From a bacterium (GTDB lineage Bacteria; Joyebacterota; Joyebacteria; Joyebacterales; Joyebacteraceae), in contig JALGZK010000012.1 in assembly GCA_025774935.1 (NCBI GenBank), positions 1 to 64,000 of the forward strand: DNA of 64,000 nucleotides, given 5' to 3'. The position numbers and the translations under genes were made by a program. Positions 25,801-45,018 of this stretch are shown in pieces. Positions within the stretch are counted from its first letter, which is position 1; the number at the start of each line of letters is the position of its first letter. Under the pieces are notes generated by a model, which worked only from the letters and a program-made list of their open reading frames with translations, did not search any database and was not told where the DNA came from.

Positions 25801-26243
25801 GGGGCATGGGCGACGCGACCGTTCGGGTGGCGTCCGAGCTCATCGTCTCCGCTCTCTCCACGCCGGTCATCGGGCGCGCGCGGGCGGCCGCGCGATCCTG
25901 GAGGGAACTTCCGTTCTGCCTCGAGTCGGACGGGGTGATCCTCGAGGGGAAGATCGACCTCGTGTTCGAGGAGGAGGATGGACTGGTCGTCGTCGATTAC
26001 AAGACGGACGAGATCGGGGCGGGCAGCGCCGCAGACCTCGCGGCCCGCTACGACGTCCAGGCACGCTCCTACGGACTCGCGCTCGCGGCGGTCACCGGCC
26101 GCTGCGTGAAGGAGGTCGTCCTCGTCTTCATGCGGGAGCCGACCGAGGAGAGGATCGACGTCGCCGACGCCTGCGCCTCTCCAGACGAAGCGCGCCACGC
26201 GATCGCGGAGCTCCTCTCACGTATGCAGGCCGCCCCCGAGTAG
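22827..26243 (+). CDS. addA: AddA helicase/nuclease subunit
   Basis: 1138 residues. It is the UvrD-like SF1 helicase plus nuclease that drives DNA-end resection with AddB. Motif I VEAGAGTGKTSVL (about residues 28-40), Ia ITFTEKAAGEL, II DEFQDTDPLQ, III VGDPKQSIYRFRRADI, IV-V LTIHKAKGLEFPV and VI LLYVGMTRARD are complete. The C-terminal nuclease has ELGTLVHDVME, EGKIDLVFEEEDGLVVVDYKTDEI and a Gln-rich QARSYGLAL motif. Length is close to Bacillus AddA (1232). Both subunits therefore carry nucleases, as in true AddAB rather than RecBCD. Chi specificity cannot be judged. Closed by the hairpin at 26264-26287. Confidence 0.96.
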   Translation: MTDATTQDAAHRALAEGRNRGLEDTYLVEAGAGTGKTSVLITRLLSLVSEGTELSRIVAITFTEKAAGELRARLRGALEAELRSGRAGPDGALLEKALHEIDRAHIGTIHGFCSDILRERPVEAGVDPDFAMADELRQVFLFEEVWETWIRSEFAQGLPPAVAEAHALGYGLRRIRELASRLVSFRDLLDLVPGPVDAGGAEAYIAELQREAEEFVELARTECSDPGDSAVGLILAFAEQARAIEHVAPESRVAFALRDVKPAPPSNRGRKANWSDGILEDVRARAAALKERRDEVAADLAHNAAVELLTWLRGYVDAYEETKLRLGLLDFEDLLIKARDVVRDNFEVRDHFKRAFARILVDEFQDTDPLQCEIAFFLAEKEGGRARDWKEVELEPGKLFLVGDPKQSIYRFRRADIEIYEEAKRHVGGEALLELIENFRTRPPIIDEVNAVFESRMVPPESGRRYQPDYAPLVPHRKADGQGPGVVILTPGGPLEKGTGTDVVREAEAASVAAFIAKVRDERSLRVYDRALEDWRPVELKDVAILFHSMTGLDVYEQALRDFGLEYRIAGGKKFYTRREVKELATVLAAVEDPHDEAAVVGALRSPFFGASDEDILLHRWRTGSMNYLTDPAAEGDSATIADSLELLRLLHAYRNGAGPARLLTTLFEETKALELFLMKPSGEQRHANLLKVVELAEALEKSQALSFGGFVRWLRDVSQLTPEEAESPLSEEGDDFIRVLTIHKAKGLEFPVTVLADVGRLRKRLDRIIVDRAAGRLEFGVSKSGTGLATRGYRDMIEFEEARRDAESLRLLYVGMTRARDTVVVPWFLAEGGRSGPWFLEQLEPLLERAGEPVVAFGDKADWGGNTVAFDTRGLDITRKRQRPIRLKTEEAETIDASTTEAARELAEWYERRAARRDTYDHPEDIRSPSRLDRDRPEPAEFAAKPPTPATADESIDGRELGTLVHDVMERIDLSAPGNIADVARALARPRGMGDATVRVASELIVSALSTPVIGRARAAARSWRELPFCLESDGVILEGKIDLVFEEEDGLVVVDYKTDEIGAGSAADLAARYDVQARSYGLALAAVTGRCVKEVVLVFMREPTEERIDVADACASPDEARHAIAELLSRMQAAPE

Positions 26244-26263: not shown

Positions 26264-26287
26264 CGCCCCCGGATCTCTCCGGGGGCG
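26264..26287. terminator. Terminator shared by addA (+) and the candidate RNA (-)
   Basis: Perfect 10-bp stem CGCCCCCGGA/TCCGGGGGCG with a TCTC loop, 20 bases after the addA stop. On the minus strand it is followed by TTCTGCG. Confidence 0.75.
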
Positions 26288-26407
26288 CCCGCAGCACCAA
26301 GCTCTTTGCTTCTCCCGCCAGCCGCTGTCGATCCTGAGAGGCGTGCCACCGTTGGCGTGGCGTCCGTCCGCAAGGGGGGCGTTCGGAGAACCTCTACTCT
26401 TTTCGAC
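26264..26407 (-). ncRNA. Candidate small non-coding RNA gene, about 140 nt
   Basis: A near-perfect sigma70 promoter (26414-26443, minus) fires into a stretch with no minus-strand reading frame. The run ends in the strong hairpin at 26264-26287, so promoter, transcript and terminator make a self-contained unit. Inside, several helices can pair. GTCGA at the predicted 5' end pairs with TCGAC about 78 bases on. AGAGG then pairs with CCTCT inside it, and GCCAC pairs with GTGGC as a local hairpin. In the second half CAGC pairs with GCTG enclosing AAGC/GCTT. I compared it by eye with SRP, 6S, tmRNA, RNase P and riboswitch cores and found no convincing match. No downstream gene exists on this strand, so a trans-acting RNA is more likely than a riboswitch. 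Confidence 0.55.
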
Positions 26408-26413
26408 GAACAC

Positions 26414-26443
26414 ATTATACCACAGGCTCTGAGTCTTAGTCAA
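26414..26443 (-). promoter_or_regulatory. Near-consensus sigma70 promoter for the candidate RNA
   Basis: Minus strand TTGACT (26443-26438), 18-bp spacer, TATAAT (26419-26414). It is one of only two full TATAAT boxes I found at promoters in this GC-rich window, and it has the better -35. Predicted start near 26407. Confidence 0.8.
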
Positions 26444-26482
26444 GCGCCTTCCGGGAACTCCCCCTCGTTCCCCGGAAAGAGA

Positions 26483-26508
26483 GGCCCCCGCCGTCGCCGG
26501 CGGGGGCC
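26483..26508. terminator. Terminator of the LVIVD/C25/M14 operon
   Basis: Perfect 11-bp stem GGCCCCCGCCG/CGGCGGGGGCC with a TCGC loop, 72 bases past the M14 stop (minus strand) and just upstream of the RNA promoter. Confidence 0.75.
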
Positions 26509-26579
26509 CCGTAACCACCTATCAAATGCCAGGTTGCACCTACTCCAGGAGGATCATCCTCCGCACGACGTGATGCCCG

Positions 26580-44868: not shown

Positions 44869-44898
44869 AGTATAGCTCGCCGGCTGAGTCACTGTCAA
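44869..44898 (-). promoter_or_regulatory. Promoter of the isocitrate dehydrogenase gene
   Basis: Minus strand TTGACA (44898-44893), 18-bp spacer, TATACT (44874-44869), 62 bases before the ATG. Confidence 0.75.
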
Positions 44899-44918
44899 GA
44901 ACACGTGGGAACTACGTC

Positions 44919-44947
44919 TTGACTTCGGCAGGCAGGCAAGAGATAAT
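44919..44947 (+). promoter_or_regulatory. Promoter of the citrate synthase gene
   Basis: TTGACT (44919-44924), 17-bp spacer, GATAAT (44942-44947). Only about 20 bases separate its -35 from that of the divergent icd promoter, leaving room for a shared regulator. Confidence 0.75.
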
Positions 44948-45018
44948 CAGGGTCGCGCTTGACACGGATGGAGTGACGGAGTCGGTGAGTTACACCCATT
45001 AGAAAGGAGTTCCGTACG

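Follow-up and report, generated by a model that had tools for sequence, protein, structure and literature searches.

A probable small non-coding RNA gene, lineage-specific in appearance, facing addA in a Joyebacterota genome

6S RNA typically takes the form of a long closed hairpin with a central bubble. Hairpins rich in C residues are found in other small RNAs: the C-rich loops of LhrC pair with Shine-Dalgarno regions, a reaction for which Hfq is not required (PMC4132741), and 6C RNA of Actinobacteria, conserved in numerous genera, carries two hairpins with a run of C (PMC4046766). We describe here a unit lying beside addA in a Joyebacterota genome, which is very probably an independent non-coding RNA gene, intergenic and on the minus strand. 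That this gene in addition encodes a regulator acting in trans by base pairing is a tentative reading, to which we give slightly less than an even chance. The RNA looks lineage-specific and regulatory and not like a universal housekeeping RNA; it is called lineage-specific because it is kept in one sister species and was not found in the other relatives examined.

The window, by which we mean the whole 64-kb stretch of DNA analysed, has a GC content of 66%. The addB gene (ADDB_N and PDDEXK_1 domains) and the addA gene (UvrD helicase and PDDEXK_1 domains) lie on the plus strand and point at the RNA unit, and upstream of the unit the minus strand encodes two peptidases, a secreted M14 carboxypeptidase that carries a FlgD-type tail and one of the C25 (gingipain-like) type. 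A GC-rich minus-strand hairpin with a GCGA loop (26482..26509), which has an equivalent, CCGGCGACGGCCGG, in the sister species (G002), is probably, judging from its sequence, the terminator of the M14 peptidase gene; its T-rich tail is weak. The RNA unit and addA are convergent, tail to tail, and face each other in the same way in G002. The addA stop codon, on the opposite strand, is at position 26243. As the only gene downstream on the strand of the RNA unit is addA, in antisense orientation, a riboswitch or leader role is excluded.

The preliminary description placed a near-consensus sigma70 promoter in front of the unit, and this promoter stands well above chance. TTGACT-18-TATAAT (26443-26414, minus strand), in which TGG precedes the -10 element, matches the consensus at 11 of 12 positions, and it was the sole match in a consensus scan of 1.8 kb, where shuffled sequences lead one to expect 0.1. 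Only two sites with 11/12 matches were present in the 64 kb, this one and another at 44898 on the minus strand. Among the other genomes of the genus (three genus genomes scanned), the promoter was found in G002 alone. A 14-base block just 5' of the -35 element, GAGTTCCCGGAAGG (26447..26460, minus strand), is identical in the alignment with G002, and the DNA farther upstream has diverged between the two genomes. By its sequence the block is a possible regulator or UP-element site, and its identity amid drifted upstream DNA renders a regulated promoter at least as plausible as the constitutive one first proposed. It was also observed that, at 26446-26474 on the minus strand, GAGTTCCCGGAAGG forms an inverted repeat with TTCCGGGGAAC, located farther upstream, and that the left arm of this repeat is not retained in G002. 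The region 44870-44950 contains divergent strong promoter-like sites, TTGACT-17-GATAAT on the plus strand at 44919 and TTGACA-18-TATACT on the minus strand at 44898; they are flanked by genes for an isocitrate/isopropylmalate dehydrogenase and for a citrate synthase, and malate/lactate dehydrogenase, aconitase and LarA-like lactate racemase genes are found beyond this gene pair.

Twenty genomes of the phylum were searched by blastn and with a covariance model made from two sequences. Convincing matches to the RNA unit were obtained in two of the 20, the genome itself and that of its congener G002, and by these two methods none was found in the remaining 18, where 'absent' is to be read as 'not recognisable' because a model built on two close sequences has little power for diverged orthologues. 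Compared with G002, the promoter is 89% and the RNA 88% identical, both without gaps. In the same comparison identity is 54% in the upstream intergenic DNA and 74.5% at the 3' end of addA, the stretch from the hairpin to the addA stop cannot be aligned, and four-fold degenerate sites are 48% identical in addA and 75% in the M14 gene. The RNA body is thus selectively conserved in this one relative (88%, compared with 48-75% at the four-fold sites of its neighbours). G002 has an additional FG-GAP/ASPIC gene between the M14 gene and the RNA unit, which means that the unit remained intact despite a changed upstream gene order. Since the flanks diverged and the promoter and RNA were kept, the conserved block corresponds to the transcription unit; it comprises promoter, transcript and hairpin in surroundings that diverged or were rearranged, in agreement with the initial proposal of a self-contained small RNA gene.

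In G001, the third genome of the genus, the RNA, its promoter and a full addA match were all not found; this genome (97% complete) is without AddA, only UvrD-type paralogues being matched. In other genera addA is present, and the consensus scan revealed no such unit or promoter adjoining it. When the invariant core was searched in one genome per species (84,980 species), G002 alone was recovered (contig JALGVN010000035.1), and no match was obtained in viral contigs. Three weaker candidates were rejected: a blastn match in G070 (E 3e-4) lies just inside the apparent start of an unrelated secreted-protein gene and was taken as chance, a weak covariance match in G015 (L057, E 0.009) is no more than a similar GC-rich terminator hairpin, and another in G012 (L029) coincides in part with the end of a gene for a secreted protein. 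In G003, which belongs to another genus, the convergent gap past addA (L019, 1283-1400) contains a promoter-like site, TTGACA followed by TGATAGCTT, in the same direction; sequence similarity to the RNA was not evident and no Rfam match was found there, and the site may belong to a unit that is unrelated or has diverged completely.

The perfect 10-bp hairpin reported at the end of the unit is indeed present (26264-26287, minus strand). Its arms are CGCCCCCGGA and TCCGGGGGCG, and its loop is a GNRA tetraloop, GAGA in this genome and GCGA in G002. The letters that follow it are CGUUCUGCG; because a U-tract is lacking, a consensus terminator scan misses the hairpin, which we regard as the probable terminator of the RNA unit. 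The hairpin is symmetric and hence able to end both transcripts, so that from its sequence it possibly serves the convergent addA gene as well. This geometry, in which the hairpin stands 20 bases beyond the addA stop and faces addA in G002 likewise, would also suit an RNA with a purely local task, whose convergent transcription or whose hairpin controls the 3' end of the addA mRNA; the joint lack of addA and of the RNA in G001 points the same way. We nevertheless regard local control as improbable, as most other genomes of the family have addA with neither the RNA nor a promoter-like site in the consensus scan, and as a local antisense RNA could do without any conserved, folded RNA body 5' of the overlap.

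The predicted RNA is about 144 nt long, with inferred ends (26264..26407, minus strand). Its predicted start, G26407, is located 7 bases past the -10 element, where it opens the GTCGA arm of stem P1. In the predicted fold of both species, a 5' domain (26327..26407) is made of stems P1 (GUCGA/UCGAC) and P2 (AGAGGU/GCCUCU), which surround hairpins P3 and P4. The loop of P3, CCCCCUU (26372..26378), which is the most striking of the exposed elements, does not vary between the two species, and in each of them it is predicted to be more than 90% unpaired. A weaker and less certain stem, the P5 region (AGCG...UGCU, 26293..26326), follows. The G002 RNA, folded independently, gave a prediction nearly identical to that of our RNA, differing in the detail of P5. 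The long-range pairings noted earlier from the sequence, GTCGA/TCGAC, AGAGG/CCTCT and GCCAC/GTGGC, were all recovered in the minimum-energy folds of the two RNAs.

Seventeen substitutions separate the two RNAs. They affect 4 of the 90 paired and 13 of the 57 unpaired columns (Fisher p=0.001), paired and unpaired being defined by the fold predicted from our sequence alone, and when substitutions were placed at random so few fell in stems in 0.65% of trials. The stems of the common structure show two changes, G-C to G-U or the reverse: the single substitution in P1 converts a G-C to a G-U pair, with pairing kept, and P5 has a G-U pair in this genome and a G-C pair in G002. Both changes preserve pairing in a minus-strand RNA and would create a mismatch if the plus strand were transcribed. 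The alignment of relatives, in which compensatory changes were to be sought, yielded a retained interval in G002 and one-sided G-C/G-U changes in stems; double-sided compensatory changes are lacking because only two sequences were available. The folding energy of the whole RNA is modestly better than that of shuffled sequences (z -1.8), and without the terminator hairpin it is no better than that of shuffles. On the basis of these predictions, a folded structure is likely. The weak folding z-score and the narrow distribution are what one would expect of an orphan promoter followed by a bidirectional terminator with nothing functional in between, but the region between them is as conserved as the promoter (88% and 89%, respectively), against 48-75% at four-fold sites of the neighbouring genes, and we judge such an arrangement quite improbable.

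The unit had been described as devoid of a minus-strand reading frame. In fact a frame of 149 aa (26518-26069, GTG start) is open through it; frames that remain open throughout are common at such a GC content. The non-coding character was upheld on other grounds, as no Pfam match was found for this frame, and as the substitutions between our sequence and G002 are spread evenly over the three codon positions, with no codon periodicity. A short protein gene or a dual-function RNA could in principle use this frame, with AGAGG as ribosome-binding site; AGAGG, however, is buried in stem P2 of the predicted fold, and together with the even substitutions and the lack of a Pfam match this makes a coding function very improbable.

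The covariance search against Rfam proposed in the preliminary description was carried out and matched no known family: the RNA stretch gave no match at the gathering score, and with E values up to 10 only partial matches at chance level, mostly to GC-rich hairpins. The models for 6S RNA (RF00013) and SRP RNA (RF00169) did not match the unit, and in this genome SRP RNA is encoded at G000:C1:199061, away from it. RNase P RNA and tmRNA are likewise encoded elsewhere, and the sole RF00013 match in the genome is a 6S-like sequence at G000:C1:272426-272527, also away from the unit. Sub-threshold 6S matches, mostly of equal length, were observed in 12 of the 20 genomes (our genome and 11 relatives, L035-L044 included); from their sequences they resemble members of a divergent 6S family whose scores fall under the Rfam gathering score. 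With these housekeeping RNAs located elsewhere and the RNA rare in the phylum (no convincing match in 18/20 genomes), the suggestion of a housekeeping RNA is not supported. If the unit were a copy of some known housekeeping RNA that had diverged far, its strong promoter and the compact transcript of the predicted fold would be accounted for; given the Rfam results, the presence of SRP RNA, RNase P, tmRNA and 6S-like RNA elsewhere and the absence from most of the phylum, we consider this extremely unlikely. Finally, no Pfam match to Hfq and no match to CsrA (PF02599) were obtained in any of the 20 genomes, control genomes being positive for both.

The base-pairing reading can be stated as follows. 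The unit's own sigma70-type promoter would direct transcription of the RNA of about 144 nt, which would stop at the GC-rich hairpin facing addA. The RNA would act in trans, without Hfq, the exposed, invariant 5'-CCCCCUU-3' loop of P3 pairing with target mRNAs at ribosome-binding regions rich in G, AAGGGGG for example, and stems P1 and P2 together with the closing hairpin would position the loop and shield the RNA ends. In computed duplexes, CCCCCUU and AAGGGGG form 7 bp with -12.3 kcal/mol, whereas pairing with a plain AAGGAGG Shine-Dalgarno sequence is weak (-5.5 kcal/mol). We propose from the predicted fold that CCCCCUU is the antisense contact site. An alternative is that the structured RNA binds a protein, which it would sequester or for which it would serve as a scaffold in the manner of 6S RNA, with no base pairing to targets. 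The 5' domain predicted to be nearly all paired in both species, the long invariant runs beyond the loops and the failure to detect Hfq in the family are consistent with protein binding, which is nevertheless rather unlikely: CsrA, the best-known sequestered protein, was undetected in all 20 genomes, a separate 6S-like match exists at G000:C1:272426, and the long closed hairpin with a central bubble typical of 6S RNA is missing from the predicted fold. The exposure and invariance of CCCCCUU and the precedent of LhrC lead us to favour a trans-acting antisense RNA over both a protein-binding RNA and local control of addA.

The RNA is a new family, yet of an ordinary kind; lineage-specific small RNAs of this type are expected in most bacterial genera. 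It may represent an undescribed family confined to one genus of a small, uncultured phylum, in which mRNAs are controlled by a C-run loop in a host with no detectable Hfq or CsrA and a regulator acts at the block next to the -35 element, although we hold this full picture to be doubtful. Regulatory RNAs of uncultured phyla are largely unmapped, and Rfam-based annotation would miss the RNA beside addA. As its host has no detectable Hfq or CsrA, it would exemplify RNA regulation lacking the usual protein partners.

Compared with described RNAs, this one resembles 6S RNA in being a compact and stable folded RNA, as predicted, encoded by an independent gene, and differs from it in a predicted fold that has no long closed hairpin with a central bubble. 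With 6C RNA it shares the form of a short non-coding RNA that bears a C-run in a hairpin loop; unlike 6C RNA, it has a single C-run loop and a multi-branched 5' domain and is found in two species, and the 6C model gave no Rfam match to the RNA stretch even at E values up to 10. LhrC of Listeria and RsaE of Staphylococcus are trans-acting RNAs with UCCC loops (PMC4132741), whereas the loop here is CCCCCUU and the host is GC-rich and belongs to an unrelated phylum; the likeness to them entails no sequence or structural relation. It consists in a short independent transcript, here predicted, as in LhrC and RsaE, and in an exposed C-rich hairpin loop, likewise predicted, suited to G-rich translation-initiation regions (PMC4132741).
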